Positions 6,994 through 13,158 of a stretch of 34,193 bases of DNA are shown here, one piece after another. The DNA comes from Snowella sp. Its GTDB lineage: Bacteria; Cyanobacteriota; Cyanobacteriia; Cyanobacteriales; Microcystaceae. The DNA is taken from positions 1 to 34,193 of the forward strand of contig QBMS01000033.1 in NCBI GenBank assembly GCA_003249095.1, in the 5' to 3' direction. Both the position numbers and the translations under genes were made by a program. Numbering within the stretch: the stretch's first letter is position 1; every line of letters starts with the position of its first letter. The notes under the pieces are model-generated. The model saw only the letters and a list, made by a program, of their open reading frames with translations. It was not told the origin of the DNA and made no database searches.

Positions 6994-8055
6994 TTATCCC
7001 CGTTTGCCCATAGCATTTTTTTCCCAATAATTAGAAGAAATCATTTTTGCCTCTTTTTCATCTAAATAAAAATCGTAAATCGTTTCTCCCGAAAATTCAC
7101 AACGTAACGGCTCAATGATTTTAGTAAACGGATTCCAAATTGCCGTAATCATTCGTTTTGCTTTTTTTCTAGTTAATTCGCACTGTATATGAACGGTTGG
7201 CAGATAAATAACCATCGCACTATATAAATTTGCTTCTATTTGCATTGTATAGCGTTGTTCTAAATCCGCTAATTTTCTTTCTAATTCTCCCTCTGTTGCC
7301 GCTAAACGAAGTTCTTCTTTTTCCTTTGCCTCATCCACTAATTGTTTTGCATTCATCTTATGGCGAATTTCACTGCTAATCGTTCCATAATAGGCTCTCA
7401 ATCTTTCCTCATCTCTTACCTTGGCTCTGGCTAACTTGGCTGACCAATTTTGCAAATTTTCTGCAATTCTATTTTCAGAAATTTTTTCAATGATAGGAGT
7501 CAATTCTTCTAAAGCAATAATCTGAGGTTGAGTTTGAGGATCAACGGCAATGCGATCGCTTTGCCACAGTAGCGCGTCTCCGATATCCACAGGTGCAACG
7601 CCTGTTAAACCATTAAGAAAAAAAGAAATCATCCCAATCCTCTTTTCATCGGCTTCTGCGGAATAGGCGATATGACACCAAAGATAGGGCGTATTTTCCC
7701 GTTTAGCTTCTACGAATCGAATTAAACCATTGTGGGGAATAAGGGTTTGAATCACCATTTTCTCAAAACCACTGGTTTTAAAGTGTCCCGTAAACTGAAC
7801 CCCTAAACTGGCGACTAAGCCTTTTGTACCCAACAAATCGGAAAACTTTTGCAATAAATCCGAATGATAGGTGACAAACAAACTTTTAGAATTATCAATT
7901 TGAGTAGAAAGGGAAACTTCTTCTGGTAACTCTAGGGCTTTTGCAATATTTTCTGTTAGCAAAACATTCAAGGTTTGTTGCTCTTCTAATTCAGCAATGC
8001 CTCCCTCTAGGGAAACTAAATTGGTGATCGCGGCTAAAATCGGATCTGTACTCAT
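6994..8055 (-). CDS. Unrecognised coiled-coil protein paired with SNF2 helicase
   Basis: I do not recognise a family for this 353-residue soluble protein. An N-terminal acidic segment (about 1-50) leads into an alpha/beta-looking region (55-185) with YLWCHIAYSAEADEKRIG near its centre. A long charged helix or coiled coil runs from about 185 to 275 (RDEERLRAYY, KEKEELRLAATEGELERKLA). The C-terminal domain (280-345) holds two cysteines, Cys292 and Cys319, and the ending DFYLDEKEAKMISSNYW. It has no signal peptide or membrane segment. It lies 56 bp downstream of the SNF2 helicase gene on the same strand, suggesting a two-gene operon in which it is an adaptor or regulator; that role is inference. 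A HIP1 site at 7552-7559 suggests long residence. Confidence 0.75.
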   Translation of the reverse strand: MSTDPILAAITNLVSLEGGIAELEEQQTLNVLLTENIAKALELPEEVSLSTQIDNSKSLFVTYHSDLLQKFSDLLGTKGLVASLGVQFTGHFKTSGFEKMVIQTLIPHNGLIRFVEAKRENTPYLWCHIAYSAEADEKRIGMISFFLNGLTGVAPVDIGDALLWQSDRIAVDPQTQPQIIALEELTPIIEKISENRIAENLQNWSAKLARAKVRDEERLRAYYGTISSEIRHKMNAKQLVDEAKEKEELRLAATEGELERKLADLEQRYTMQIEANLYSAMVIYLPTVHIQCELTRKKAKRMITAIWNPFTKIIEPLRCEFSGETIYDFYLDEKEAKMISSNYWEKNAMGKRG

Positions 8056-8093
8056 GTTTACAATCTTATTTAAATTAATTTAACCGAAAATAT

Positions 8094-8113
8094 AATAGAG
8101 AAAAATCTCTATT
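8094..8113 (-). other. Hairpin at the SNF2 gene end
   Basis: AATAGAGA and TCTCTATT form a perfect 8-bp stem with a 4-base loop that overlaps the helicase stop codon (8112-8114). On the minus strand an AT-rich segment follows, not a clean T run. It may be an RNA-processing or attenuation element between the two operon genes. Confidence 0.4.
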
Positions 8114-9833
8114 AAGCTTCAAAGTCTTCCCCAAAAATTTGCTCTTCTAATTCTTGGGTTTCTTTATAACTGTCTTTAGCTTTTAATAAATCACTTGCTA
8201 ACTGATTAAAAGCCAAATCTAGCTCTGCTTTAGCCTGATTTTTTAACCACAAATCTCGCACAATTTCACTAAAATCTAGGTCTTCATCCATATTACCCAA
8301 AATCGTCTCAATTTCTCCCACCACTAATTCAAACATATTAATCTTGTCGTGGAGAACGCTTAAAATATATTCTTCAATACTATCTTTCAAACAAAAATTA
8401 AAAATGAATACATCCTGGGCTTGTCCGATCCGATGAATCCGTCCGATCCGTTGCTCAATTTTCATCGGATTCCAAGGCAAATCATAATTAACGATCGCGT
8501 TAGCAAATTGGATATTGCGACCTTCTCCCCCCGTTTCCGAAGCCAAGAGAACGGGAACCTGATCCCGAAACGCTTCTATCGCCGCATCCTTTTCTTTGAG
8601 AGACATATCACCGCGAAAGGTAACAAAGACAATACCCGCTTCCTGGAGCATGGTTTGTAAATAGTCACTGGTCGCTTTAAAGGTCGCAAAAACTAAGGTT
8701 TTCTGGTGAGATTGTTGCAATAGTTCAATTAATGCCTTGGCTTTTTCTGCTTTTTTGATTTGGGCAGAACGTTTGACTAAACTTTTAAGAACATCGCTTT
8801 CGATTCGTTTACTTAATTGCTTCAAAGAATCCGTCAAAGCATTGGGAGAAGAACCCGCTCGCATTAATAAATTAGTCGTTGAAAGTTTATCGAGGGGAAC
8901 ATCAGGATGGCGGAGAAATTCGGTCACATCTTCGTATAGTTTTTTCTCGGCACTCGAAGGAATGACAGAAATCGTCGTCGCAAATCGCTTGGGTAATTTA
9001 ACATCTACTAAAGCGCGGGTATTGCGTACCATCACTTCTCGCATTAATTGACGAAGCTTTTCGGGATTTTTCGGAACGCGACCGTTTTTAGAATTTACAT
9101 ATTCTTTTTTGAAGGCGGCTTCTGTTTTTAATAATCCTGGTTTAAGCAATGTTAAAAGGTTGAATAATTCGATTAAGGAATTCTGAACAGGTGTGGCAGT
9201 GAGCATTAAAATAAAACGCTTATTTAACGCATTTACCAATTTCCAGGAAAGGGTGTTTCTATTTTTGAGATGGTGGGCTTCATCGACAATTACTAAATCC
9301 CAATTGCGTCCAGTGGCAAAGGGAAAATGTTTAGCGGATTTGGCAGTTGGCAAGGAGGCAACAATTCTTTGATTACTCGTCCAAAATTCTTCGGGGTTTT
9401 GTTGTAGTAATTTGGAGTCGGTGGTGATACTATCTATATTAAATTTTTCGCTTAATTCTTGTTGCCATTGGGAGACTAAGGAGGCAGGACTAAGGATTAA
9501 TAAGGATTGAATTTGTCCTCTGGCTAAATATTCTTTACAAATTAAACCCGCTTCAATGGTTTTACCGAGTCCGACTTCATCGGCTAACAAGGCCCTTCCG
9601 CCTAATTGACGCATCACTTTTCGGGCGGTTTCGATTTGATACCAATATTTATCAATGGCCGTTAATGTGGGCAAACAAAGGAGTTGATCGTAGTCTGCCA
9701 TGATGGATAGGTTGAACAGGTCTAAACGCACTTGATAGTGGTCTAGATCGTCAAATTTTTGGGATTTTAGGGCTTCTAGGGCGAGGGAAGGGGTAAATTT
9801 AAAGGTGCGGGAGATGTTGGGGAGAGAAGGCAT
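8112..9833 (-). CDS. RapA-like SNF2/SWI2 family ATPase (compact)
   Basis: An ATP-driven DNA translocase of the SNF2 branch of superfamily 2. Motif I is DEVGLGKT (85-92), the DEAH box is at 184-187, motif III TATP is at 212-215, and motif VI QRIGRIHRIGQ is at 461-471. This order and the YQIETARKV segment before motif I fit the bacterial RapA-like group. At 573 residues it is much shorter than RapA (about 970), being essentially the bare motor with a short N-terminal segment and an acidic C-terminal helical tail (about 500-573). No nuclease or methylase domain is fused. The coiled-coil protein downstream is its likely partner. It could act in transcription recycling or phage defence; the latter is inferred from the neighbourhood. 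Confidence 0.92.
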   Translation of the reverse strand: MPSLPNISRTFKFTPSLALEALKSQKFDDLDHYQVRLDLFNLSIMADYDQLLCLPTLTAIDKYWYQIETARKVMRQLGGRALLADEVGLGKTIEAGLICKEYLARGQIQSLLILSPASLVSQWQQELSEKFNIDSITTDSKLLQQNPEEFWTSNQRIVASLPTAKSAKHFPFATGRNWDLVIVDEAHHLKNRNTLSWKLVNALNKRFILMLTATPVQNSLIELFNLLTLLKPGLLKTEAAFKKEYVNSKNGRVPKNPEKLRQLMREVMVRNTRALVDVKLPKRFATTISVIPSSAEKKLYEDVTEFLRHPDVPLDKLSTTNLLMRAGSSPNALTDSLKQLSKRIESDVLKSLVKRSAQIKKAEKAKALIELLQQSHQKTLVFATFKATSDYLQTMLQEAGIVFVTFRGDMSLKEKDAAIEAFRDQVPVLLASETGGEGRNIQFANAIVNYDLPWNPMKIEQRIGRIHRIGQAQDVFIFNFCLKDSIEEYILSVLHDKINMFELVVGEIETILGNMDEDLDFSEIVRDLWLKNQAKAELDLAFNQLASDLLKAKDSYKETQELEEQIFGEDFEA

Positions 9834-10064: not shown

Positions 10065-11207
10065 ATGCAGTACGCATTTGTTGATGGAAAAAGGCAAAAA
10101 GCATTCAAGGATGGCAGAGGTATTTGTCCTAAATGTCAAAGAACCGTGATTGCTAGTTGTGGAGAAATATATATTTGGCATTGGAAACATAAAAATAGTT
10201 GTGATTCATGGTTTGAACCAGAAACAGAGTGGCATCTTGACTGGAAAGAGCAATTTCCCGAAGATTGGCAGGAGTTTATTATCGAAGACAATGCAACAGG
10301 GATAAAACATATTGCTGATATTAAAACTGCTGAGGGAATGGTGATAGAATTCCAAAACTCACCTATTTCAAGTGCCGAAATTAAGGAAAGGGAGGAGTTT
10401 TATAAAAATATGATTTGGGTAGTAAATGCTGTAAAATTTAAAGATAATTTTTCACGTAGGAGTGTCGTAACAGATCAGCTCAGAGTTCTTGAGCAGAATA
10501 TAAACAATCAAAAAAAAGCAATTAAAGAGCAACTTGAAGAAGATTTAAATAAGGCGAAAAAAAATCTTGAATCACTTGAGAGTGACTATTTAAGTATCAA
10601 AAATGATAATACAAAACTCGAAGATAAATTTTCTGAATATGTGGAATATTTAAGTCAATTACAATGTTTTTCAGAAGCAATCGTTACACAATTAAAAAAA
10701 GCAAATTCTATCAAAGATGTAGAGTCTTTAACTCAAGCATACGTTATTGCCAAAATGGTTGTCACACAATTAGACAAGACCATAATAAATCAAGAAACAA
10801 AGATCAATTATTTAACCTCAACAAAATCAATACATGATATTTCATATAAAATTGATTGTTTATTAGAAGAAGTTCAAAAAAATGTGGGCAAAAAATTTAT
10901 AATAACTAATCAATCTATACAATCATTAAGAACGAGTTGGTTTAATTTAGAAGAACGAAATAAGTATCTAATTGGTTTGCCCAATTCTGATTTTTTACAA
11001 AACTATAAAATAATTGAGTTTAGTCAAATCGAAAAAGCTAATTTAGTAAATATAAAAGCTATTGAAACTATTAGTAAGCCTACCTTATTTCCCGTTATCT
11101 ATGATATGAATGAAGAAAAATTATCTGATTTCTTGATTAATTCTGGATATAAAGGCTATGAATTTTTATTGAATATTCAGCCAGAACTAGAATATATTAG
11201 GGATTAA
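10065..11207 (+). CDS. CoiA-like nuclease-domain protein with coiled coil (5' part of a frameshifted gene)
   Basis: The N-terminal third resembles the competence protein CoiA family. A cysteine/histidine cluster (Cys21, Cys24, Cys32, His39, His42, Cys46) could bind zinc. A PD-(D/E)XK-like nuclease core follows, with HIADI (Asp85) and VIEFQNSPIS (Glu95, Gln97) as catalytic candidates. From about residue 145 the chain is Lys/Glu/Asn-rich with a long coiled coil. It stops at residue 380 with TAA at 11205-11207, yet the next frame continues as plausible protein to 11643. One fewer base in the GGG at 11200-11202 would join both into about 525 residues. The region is very AT-rich, uses many ATA codons and lacks HIP1 sites, unlike its neighbours, which suggests recent acquisition. 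Function in DNA uptake or defence is inferred. Confidence 0.8.
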   Translation: MQYAFVDGKRQKAFKDGRGICPKCQRTVIASCGEIYIWHWKHKNSCDSWFEPETEWHLDWKEQFPEDWQEFIIEDNATGIKHIADIKTAEGMVIEFQNSPISSAEIKEREEFYKNMIWVVNAVKFKDNFSRRSVVTDQLRVLEQNINNQKKAIKEQLEEDLNKAKKNLESLESDYLSIKNDNTKLEDKFSEYVEYLSQLQCFSEAIVTQLKKANSIKDVESLTQAYVIAKMVVTQLDKTIINQETKINYLTSTKSIHDISYKIDCLLEEVQKNVGKKFIITNQSIQSLRTSWFNLEERNKYLIGLPNSDFLQNYKIIEFSQIEKANLVNIKAIETISKPTLFPVIYDMNEEKLSDFLINSGYKGYEFLLNIQPELEYIRD

Positions 11208-11874: not shown

Positions 11875-12063
11875 ATGACAACATTAAACATTAAACAACA
11901 AGCTCATAGTCTCATTGAACAATTACCCGATAACTGTACTTGGGATGATATTATGCACCAGGTTTATTTGATTTTAACAGTCGAAGCAGGTTTAGCAGAC
12001 AGCCAAGCAGGACGGGTCAAATCCGTAGAAGAAGTGCGATCGCAATTTGGTCTGCAACCATGA
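11875..12063 (+). CDS. Antitoxin of a ParE/RelE-type module
   Basis: A small protein of 62 residues whose stop overlaps the toxin start (ATGA at 12060-12063), a typical type II toxin-antitoxin arrangement. The sequence (NIKQQAHSLIEQLPDNCTWD, then DIMHQVYLILTVEAGLADSQ) resembles the short helical antitoxins commonly paired with RelE/ParE toxins in cyanobacteria. The end, VKSVEEVRSQFGL, is a usual toxin-binding tail. No classical DNA-binding fold is visible, so operon autoregulation is uncertain. The role is supported mainly by its partner. Confidence 0.8.
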   Translation: MTTLNIKQQAHSLIEQLPDNCTWDDIMHQVYLILTVEAGLADSQAGRVKSVEEVRSQFGLQP

Positions 12064-12344
12064 ACGTATTTTGGACAAATAAAGCAATTGAGCAGCTAAA
12101 AGCAATCCATGACTATCATGCTCAAATTTCGCCTGAATATGCCACTCGGCTAGTTGATCTCATTACAAAACGTTCAGAGCAAATTGCCAACTTTCCTAAT
12201 TCAGGTCGAATGTTACCCGAAATTAATCTAGAACAAACTCGTGAAATTATTGAAGCAAATTATCGAATTATTTACTACGTTGGAGTTGATAGAATTGATG
12301 TCTTAGGGGTTGTACATGGTCAACAAAAATTGTCTTCATTTTAA
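12060..12344 (+). CDS. ParE/RelE-superfamily toxin
   Basis: A 94-residue protein of the RelE/ParE fold. Its features are an N-terminal strand (NVFWTNKAIEQL), two helices (AIHDYHAQISPEYATRLVDL), the loop FPNSGRMLPEI, and closing strands REIIEANYRIIYYV and IDVLGVVHGQQ. The SGR motif and the R-I-I-Y strand are characteristic. The terminal VVHGQQ is closer to the ParE gyrase-poison branch than to ribosome-dependent RelE mRNA nucleases, but the target cannot be assigned with certainty. It is translationally coupled to the antitoxin through the ATGA overlap. Confidence 0.87.
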   Translation: MNVFWTNKAIEQLKAIHDYHAQISPEYATRLVDLITKRSEQIANFPNSGRMLPEINLEQTREIIEANYRIIYYVGVDRIDVLGVVHGQQKLSSF

Positions 12345-12346
12345 TA

Positions 12347-12494
12347 GCGATCGCTACTTTTCGTCAGTTTAAAGAATGATTGCGATCGCAGTCCTTAATC
12401 CCTTCAAAGAATGATTACGATCACCAACTTTACCGTAACAACATTAAAAAGGTGATCGCCGCCCTTAGTCCCTTTAAAGAATGATTGCGATCGC
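12347..12494. repeat. Repeat cluster between the two toxin-antitoxin modules
   Basis: This segment contains three versions of CAAAGAATGATTGCGATCGC or its variants (ending near 12389, 12425 and 12494). They alternate with CCTTAATCCCTT-like and ACTTTACCGTAA-like spacers. The units match the copy at 11724-11792. No gene is present in 12345-12567. Confidence 0.65.
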
Positions 12495-12546
12495 TTATAA
12501 ATATAATCTGTTGCTCACAGAAATTGTCTGATATAATTCGAGATGA

Positions 12547-12789
<243 letters not shown>

Positions 12790-12798
12790 TGGGATAAT

Positions 12799-13158
12799 AT
12801 GAAATTTAAAATTGATGAAAATTTGCCAACAGAATTTGCGGAAATACTTCAAGAAGCTGGCTATGATGCAATGACTGTACATCAGCAAAAACTAAAAGGA
12901 GAAAAAGACCCAATTCTTTTAGAGATTTGTCAACAAGAAAGTAGAACATTAATCACACTTGATTTAGATTTTACTAATCTTAAAAATTATCCTCCCGAAC
13001 AATTTTTAGGAATCATTGTATTTCGGGTCAATCGTCAAGACAAGCTCTATTTGCTTTCTATTCTTCAAAACATAATCCCGTTATTTGAGCAGGAAACAAT
13101 TATTCATCACTTGTGGATTGTCGAAGAAAACCGCATCAGAATACGCGGAGAAAGCTAA
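12799..13158 (+). CDS. DUF5615 PIN-like toxin
   Basis: A 119-residue PIN-like ribonuclease-type toxin, the usual partner of DUF433 antitoxins. Acidic residues expected in the active site are seen in KIDENLP near the start, in GEKDPILLEIC in the middle and in LITLDLDFTNL. Some family members cleave RNA, but the target here is unknown. It forms an operon with the DUF433 gene. Its 3' side carries another partial copy of the island's HIP1-related repeat. Confidence 0.9.
   Translation: MKFKIDENLPTEFAEILQEAGYDAMTVHQQKLKGEKDPILLEICQQESRTLITLDLDFTNLKNYPPEQFLGIIVFRVNRQDKLYLLSILQNIIPLFEQETIIHHLWIVEENRIRIRGES

Follow-up and report, generated by a model that had tools for sequence, protein, structure and literature searches.

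A mobile two-gene unit of cyanobacteria and other prokaryotes that looks like a RapA/BrxHII-type helicase in split form

SNF2 ATPase cores of the family considered here translocate on double-stranded DNA. In a 34,193-nucleotide stretch of Snowella sp. DNA (contig QBMS01000033.1, henceforth termed the window), a gene for such a motor is followed by a gene for a 353-residue partner protein, and the two form a mobile two-gene unit with strict co-occurrence and co-divergence. Judged from structural models of the partner, the pair very probably represents a RapA/BrxHII-type helicase split over two genes, in which the partner looks like the fold of the RapA Spacer and C-terminal domain, encoded separately. 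A preliminary description of this DNA, made from the sequence alone, had put the pair forward as a candidate for an undescribed two-gene system; the mobile unit proved real, but it looks like a known kind of machine (RapA/BrxHII), so that the two-gene form is what looks new. The pair comprises the following features, with residues numbered by protein:

8112..9833, minus strand: SNF2 motor subunit, 573 residues, without a RapA-like N-terminal domain (open reading frame, ORF; Pfam SNF2-rel_dom and Helicase_C; best PDB sequence match RapA, E 1.9e-44)
8280..9641, minus strand: helicase core, residues 65-518 (stretches 65-247 and 374-518 co-linear with RapA 157-348 and 501-649)
9561-9563, minus strand: Walker A lysine K91 (alignment with RapA)
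8115..8279, minus strand: motor C-terminal tail, residues 519-573 (conserved W, AF and FG..E end in 55 pairs)
6994..8055, minus strand: partner subunit, 353 residues, predicted RapA C-terminal-region fold encoded in trans (ORF and model fold)
7786..8055, minus strand: partner N-terminal alpha/beta domain, about residues 1-90 (placed on RapA 711-801, the region called Spacer)
7132..7767, minus strand: partner second domain, about residues 97-308 (model secondary structure, with a coiled-coil insertion between beta strands 111-148 and 272-308)
7252..7512, minus strand: coiled-coil helices, residues ~182-268 (AlphaFold2 model)
6997..7131, minus strand: partner C-terminal tail, residues 309-353, with C319 (place of a cysteine-rich extension in Pseudomonadota and haloarchaeal partners)

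The ORF list places the partner gene 56 nucleotides (nt) downstream of the SNF2 gene on the same strand, as previously described. The motor consists of a SNF2 core (Pfam E 2e-37) and a Helicase_C domain (E 8.4e-25) with little beyond these. Its residues K91, E185 and R468 correspond to K183, E281 and R599 of RapA and are identical in all 55 aligned SNF2 proteins of such pairs, which bears out the earlier statement that the helicase motifs are intact. The RapA core, a SNF2 ATPase with intact motifs, is therefore present, whereas the RapA N-terminal domain (RapA 1-107), which in RapA gates the ATPase and contacts RNA polymerase, is missing: only about 64 residues precede the core, and the PDB match starts at RapA 157. 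The top NCBIfam and PADLOC profiles for the motor are DrmD, RapA, DpdE and BrxH, all far under the NCBIfam cut-offs (DrmD, 264.2 bits against 950 in NCBIfam and 261 bits in PADLOC; RapA equivalog, 241.4 bits against 576). The conserved C-terminal tail of the motor may serve as a docking segment.

The partner was earlier called unrecognised, and in terms of sequence families this held, since it scored above the cut-off for no family in Pfam, NCBIfam, PADLOC or PHROGs. Its best sub-threshold matches were Pfam KfrA_N (21.8 bits against 26.1), Cmr5 in PADLOC (E 0.018) and a PHROGs family at E 0.027, with zero NCBIfam matches up to E 1. A single-sequence search of the PDB gave a best E of 0.42, and a PDB profile search with ten partners retrieved only a ubiquitin-fusion protein (E 0.53). 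Membership among KfrA plasmid proteins was rejected, the KfrA_N match being under the Pfam cut-off and located over the coiled coil. The structural model, by contrast, has the fold of the RapA C-terminal region, and it contains the central coiled coil that had been predicted. The two C-terminal cysteines that had been described as conserved fared differently: among 56 homologues C319 is invariant and C292 present in at least 90%, whereas in a wider set of 18 homologues only C319 stays nearly invariant (Rhodovastum lacks it), conservation of C292 being confined to the cyanobacterial and sulfur-bacterial set. Since only C319 is old, a zinc site formed by the two was rejected for the window protein. 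In Pseudomonadota partners, the cysteine aligned with C319 precedes a C-terminal zinc-finger-like stretch that the window protein lacks.

The likeness to RapA emerged from the AlphaFold2 model of the partner (built on 56 homologues; pLDDT 84.5, pTM 0.65). A Foldseek search of the PDB returned 201 matches at E<=10, and the single one at E<=0.001 was Escherichia coli RapA (8t0l; E 1.1e-7, probability 1.00). In VIA comparisons the RapA entries 8so8, 8t0l and 8spg aligned at Z 8.5, 8.4 and 8.1 over 230-232 residues, with a fourth entry at Z 6.8, and model residues 1-288 were placed on RapA 710-968. A second model, of partner residues 1-178, gave five RapA entries as its five best rows (Z 7.6-4.8; root-mean-square deviation, rmsd, 2.9-4.0; model 2-84 on RapA 711-801), with unrelated folds from Z 4.3 downward. 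By the tool's own caution, a Z below 8 may reflect a common arrangement; the recurring register and the gap to unrelated rows argue against a mere common arrangement. Moreover, the order of the genes, motor then partner, equals the order of the domains in RapA, because the motor matches RapA 157-348 and 501-649 and the partner model RapA 710-968.

Several observations weigh against this assignment. The top VIA row is a coiled-coil match of about 60 residues (Z 9.5), as are most other rows, and superposition of the whole model is poor (rmsd 9-12.6, TM-score 0.23). Two domains that move relative to each other would give such a high rmsd, but a partial match would do so too. Confidence in the second model ends at about residue 78. 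Sequence profiles are silent: the partner profile against 11 RapA C-terminal regions reached a probability of 1-2%, which is not significant, comparison with a single RapA gave no significant link, and the partner found no profile match in the C-terminal sequence of one BrxHII. It is thus the fold and the gene order that carry the kinship. On these grounds one might regard the RapA likeness as a modelling artefact or as convergence, and the partner as an unrelated adaptor; we consider this improbable, given that RapA is the only significant PDB match, that two models yield the same register and that the gene order follows the RapA domain order.

Co-occurrence was assessed in public genomes, where 79 loci elsewhere encode the partner, mostly in cyanobacteria but also in Parabeggiatoa and Thiomargarita. 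A SNF2 match lies in the same stretch in 66 of them, usually upstream on the same strand and often within 100 nt, three of these SNF2 genes being broken (L061, L082, L088). Partners are hence not found mostly without a SNF2 gene, in agreement with the pairing proposed at the outset. Among the 13 loci with no SNF2 match in the stretch, eight have less than 1 kb of sequence before the partner (L043, L046, L059, L065, L076, L079, L081, L086), two have a full-length SNF2 gene elsewhere in the genome (L057, L085), and one from Parabeggiatoa (L058) has just the C-terminal part of a SNF2 gene, which seems to lie at the opposite end of the contig. The remaining L077 and L080 have a truncated partner and no intact close SNF2 in the genome, one of them retaining a 56-residue remnant.

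Genome samples gave the same picture. Among 58 relatives, the same eight carry the partner and a SNF2 gene of the clade (E <= 1e-120); a further partner match (G042) was dropped, as it covered the coiled coil of a 973-residue frame, judged by eye to be similar to a PAS-type sensor. In a sample of 291 genomes of the phylum, the partner profile was found in seven and SNF2 in eight, seven being common. The eighth SNF2 genome (G096, a 45% relative on a GC-rich contig) proved to encode a 389-residue partner that the first profile had missed (profile probability 97.5%, E 7.6e-12), so a SNF2 without partner was rejected here after reading of the DNA and profile comparison. Among 299 genomes of a phylum called Pseudomonadota from the Parabeggiatoa name, SNF2 (E <= 1e-60) occurs in eight, namely the Parabeggiatoa of L058 (partial) and seven in one class of 48 genomes, and in that class the partner is present in exactly the seven with SNF2. 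The distance matrices of the two proteins correlate with r 0.96 over 55 pairs, hand-chosen from the intact ones (permutation maximum 0.43 in 2000 permutations), and with r 0.88 within the 48 cyanobacterial and sulfur-bacterial pairs (permutation maximum 0.25); shared host descent contributes to these correlations.

The unit is also mobile. Pairs were found on complete plasmids, and no single housekeeping neighbourhood accompanies the pair. In one relative (G004) 1.08 Mb separate the two genes, both of them intact, and a transposase adjoins the partner; in Cylindrospermum the partner lies on plasmid 3 and the SNF2 gene on another contig. A Nodularia plasmid carries only a broken SNF2 gene and no partner match. 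Partners of the giant sulfur bacteria Parabeggiatoa and Thiomargarita (L058, L059, L060) share 47-50% identity with the window protein, which hints at transfer between inhabitants of microbial mats. A viral origin of the partner found no backing: phage records yielded no relative, nor did two scans of IMG/VR that rely on short peptide patterns, and a viral fold library gave zero matches to the partner model at E <= 0.001. This absence from viral records is a point against the reading of the pair as a defence machine that we weigh below.

More distant forms share the two-gene layout. The pair is present on a Rhodovastum plasmid and in the seven class genomes; among the loci read in detail (all except G430), the genes overlap at start and stop in Rhodovastum and in five class loci and are 178 nt apart in L112. 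The partners read from these have a cysteine-rich stretch at the C-terminus; the class motors carry an N-terminal extension of unassigned kind. The next closest motors in plasmid records are haloarchaeal (17 of 25), and in all 13 of these 17 records that were fetched the SNF2 gene is followed downstream by a frame matching the haloarchaeal partner profile; nine of the 13 loci built that profile (A9), so only four matches are independent. The haloarchaeal and bacterial partner profiles match each other with a probability of 94.3% (E 1e-7, 314 columns). Two haloarchaeal partners lie in very long frames of 1,378 and 1,097 residues (L194:6167-10303 and L197:6563-9856), and the former contains many repeated matches to the cysteine-rich end of the profile. 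In a tree of motors, bacterial pair motors form one clade (bootstrap 99) and haloarchaeal ones another (100). The union of the two has a support of only 56 and takes in a SNF2 from a Bacillota plasmid that yielded no partner, so the tree does not separate one split from two. The pair moves among cyanobacteria and sulfur bacteria and, in more distant form, haloarchaea as well.

What the pair does has to be judged largely from its context and from its residues. The preliminary description had held a defence function and a role in transcription recycling to be equally possible. For the latter, the accessible text of PMC8501970 names L216, V217, L220, L229, I540 and I541 as RapA contacts to the flap tip of RNA polymerase. 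In ten RapAs, L216 and V217 are kept in all, L220 in seven, and L229 and I541 are hydrophobic in all; the hydrophobic character is lost only at L220, in the other three. In the 55 pair motors, L216 is replaced by Q (53/55), L229 by T (50/55) and I541 by K (46/55), V217 is mixed and L220 becomes S, A, E and others, so that five of the six positions of the hydrophobic patch are changed; one BrxHII compared at the same six positions has V, A, Q, L, M and E. The sixth, I540, stays hydrophobic (L in 48/55), which counts in favour of an RNA-polymerase recycling factor that would stand in for RapA in organisms without it, as does the fact that the closest solved relative of both halves is RapA. Yet the RapA N-terminal domain is missing along with the five contacts, and presence in only eight of 58 relatives would be odd for a housekeeping factor. 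The pair is thus probably not a polymerase recycler in the manner of RapA, and we hold the recycling hypothesis in general to be unlikely, contrary to the equal footing it had been given.

Defence against foreign DNA is the likeliest task, although we would place it no higher than an even call, with plasmid upkeep at a considerably smaller share; this balance sets the haloarchaeal and BREX-3 context, the patchy presence, the mobility and the fused relatives against a null enrichment and plasmid genes. In seven of the 13 haloarchaeal loci, the annotation shows a DUF499 gene, a DUF1156 gene or both no more than 5 kb away, the DUF499 genes exceeding 1,000 residues, and three further loci hold a restriction endonuclease. 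In one bacterial class genome (G414; L121/L144), a BREX-3 locus (BrxF, BrxC, PglXI, BrxHII and PglZ recognised) together with Ppl and HEC-03B genes lies directly divergent from the pair; since this locus has its own 932-residue BrxHII, the idea that the pair substitutes for BrxHII was rejected for G414. In another (G386; L120), PDC-M38A/B genes lie on one side of the pair, and Cas1, Csx1 and a stretch of CRISPR-like repeats, recognised by eye, on the other. Other observations speak against defence. The PADLOC scan of neighbours covered three of the seven class loci, two of them positive, the other four having been read by eye, and three of the 13 haloarchaeal loci contain neither DUF499/DUF1156 genes nor a restriction endonuclease in the stretch. 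Around cyanobacterial pairs there was no defence enrichment, with 37 PADLOC families among 120 neighbour proteins and 52 among 120 controls at E 1e-20, in a crude test that drew on 435 neighbour proteins (at most two per family) and, for the controls, on 147 proteins taken from 14 stretches in two genomes, with only 25 families listed per set. The defence function suggested earlier hence remains plausible but unproven.

The null enrichment would suit plasmid or mobile-element upkeep, in which the split motor would strip plasmid DNA of proteins or transcription complexes or assist its replication or segregation. Plasmid-type genes (ParA/ParB, relaxase or SF1-helicase; ParB and SF1 helicase assigned by Pfam, others by eye) occur in 28 of 57 bacterial loci of at least 10 kb, and the gene tables of the plasmid collection are incomplete, making neighbour counts lower bounds. 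Besides the pairs on complete plasmids, one pair from haloarchaea is flanked by ParA and orc1/cdc6 genes. Against upkeep stand pairs on chromosome-sized records (for example L053, 11.4 Mb, and G137:C3, 6.8 Mb), the patchy presence among relatives and the DUF499/DUF1156 neighbours in haloarchaea, and we see in it a minority option, though the main rival to defence. SNF2 motors also act in DNA repair, and a repair or stress motor would have a precedent in Bacillus, where a SNF2 protein of similar size, YqhH, is presumably encoded beside yqhG, the gene of an uncharacterised protein. Ten partner proteins gave no match to the YqhG family (PF11079) at E up to 1, and the patchy, mobile distribution likewise fits such a role poorly. 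The SNF2 gene yqhH of Bacillus thuringiensis is reported in ultraviolet tolerance in the part of PMC10054049 available to us; for the pair, we give a repair role little credence.

Taken as a whole, the explanation we favour, and think somewhat better than even, is a split two-subunit DNA machine of the RapA/BrxHII type, likeliest for defence. The motor subunit would translocate on double-stranded DNA with its SNF2 ATPase core, and the partner would correspond to the region fused behind the core in RapA and BrxHII, with an N-terminal alpha/beta domain and a beta-sheet carrying the inserted coiled coil, extended by an additional cysteine-rich end in the lineages read outside cyanobacteria and sulfur bacteria. 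The partner may dock on the second motor lobe, supply target recognition and take over the gating of ATP use from the missing N-terminal domain. Neither window protein matches a recognised nuclease domain in a Pfam scan, so any cleavage would depend on other factors. Haloarchaeal pairs would act as the helicase of DUF499-type BREX-related systems, and bacterial ones alone or beside other systems. A broader and more tentative proposal, which we hold to be doubtful, is that the two-subunit RapA machine is a self-standing defence module of bacteria and archaea, a motor gene with a detachable recognition gene (in many cases with a cysteine-rich tail, very long in some haloarchaea) used alone on plasmids or within BREX-related loci, and that fused RapA, BrxHII and DrmD evolved from or into it.

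Comparison with known systems delimits what is new. RapA shares the SNF2 core, and its post-core region (RapA 710-968) matches the partner model; it differs in being a single polypeptide with an N-terminal domain that the two-gene form lacks. According to the available text of PMC12839542, BrxHII comprises a SNF2 core, a degenerate restriction-endonuclease-like domain and a C-terminal alpha+beta domain with a coiled-coil insert, and the C-terminal domain of BrxHII and RapA is called unique to these helicases. On that description, the pair would share the RapA-like layout of BrxHII from BREX type 3, which differs as one polypeptide with a Tudor domain in a six-gene system. The same text gives the core of BREX-related (BR) systems as a DUF499 ATPase, a DUF1156-type methylase and a one-chain SNF2 helicase; seven of the 13 haloarchaeal split pairs adjoin genes of one or both of the first two kinds, but BR helicases are described there as single chains, and the main text of PMC12839542 nowhere uses the word "split". 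The window itself contains neither the BREX type 3 set (BrxC, PglX, PglZ, BrxF) nor a DUF499/DUF1156 locus: its largest ORF has 800 residues, and no gene reaches the size of BrxC or of a DUF499 ATPase. RapA-like helicases are also employed by ARMADA and DISARM class I, as stated in the portion of PMC12458937 at hand, and among the SNF2 helicases DrmD (DISARM), DpdE and ArmA (ARMADA) it is DrmD that provides the best NCBIfam and PADLOC profile of the motor; its cut-off of 950 bits is missed by far, and no DISARM or ARMADA partner was recognised among the window genes scanned. Searches of the open-access full-text literature (the supplements of PMC12839542 and most subscription papers lie outside their scope) turned up no description of a split RapA/BrxHII pair.

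The surroundings of the pair in the window include genes that had been noted before and whose domains were confirmed:

10065..11207, plus strand: neighbour, CoiA-like nuclease-domain protein (Pfam 23.3 bits, cut-off 20.3)
11875..13158, plus strand: neighbours, short ORF and ParE toxin, DUF433 and DUF5615 (Pfam)

In G004, ParE, DUF433 and DUF5615 genes adjoin the SNF2 gene as in the window, but the slot of the CoiA-like gene is occupied by a 727-residue P-loop protein (L126:3890-6073). As this slot holds another protein there, the CoiA-like nuclease gene appears exchangeable and is probably not part of the system. The 727-residue protein itself has a GTPase-like P-loop, is dynamin-like by eye and gave zero Pfam or PADLOC family matches. 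The 6.5-13.2 kb stretch of the window is flanked by genes that we take to be petB and leuC, and its G+C content is below most of the window, with a minimum of 0.28-0.31 around the CoiA-like gene. The petB/petD-like genes of the window, like its relatives, mark it as cyanobacterial. A 12-kb stretch around petB in seven relatives contains neither leuC nor the pair. From the low G+C, the site between the two flanking genes and the relatives' petB stretches, we infer an acquired island.

Elsewhere, a protein of the type encoded in 23S ribosomal RNA intervening sequences lies just before the partner in L040, L041, L042 and L085 (by Pfam for L041, by family for the others), and L040 and L042 have two further genes between SNF2 and partner, in L042 a glycosyltransferase and an EamA transporter. 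In Nostoc loci and one of Aliterella (L028, L034, L035, L036, L074, L084), the partner is followed by a small unknown gene and an HNH nuclease, which in L034 shows a weak PtuB likeness. A ferrochelatase-like gene, recognised by eye, lies within a few kb of the partner in G004 and of the whole pair in G044 (L125, L131), perhaps an old shared site.

For a family annotated only as "hypothetical", these results provide a likely identity and join it to the RapA/BrxHII helicases. The pair would represent a mobile, often plasmid-borne form of such machines common to cyanobacteria, giant sulfur bacteria, other Pseudomonadota and haloarchaea. As a natural split, it would offer a motor and a regulatory half that can be purified separately and mixed, and with the halves separable the role of the RapA C-terminal region would become directly testable.

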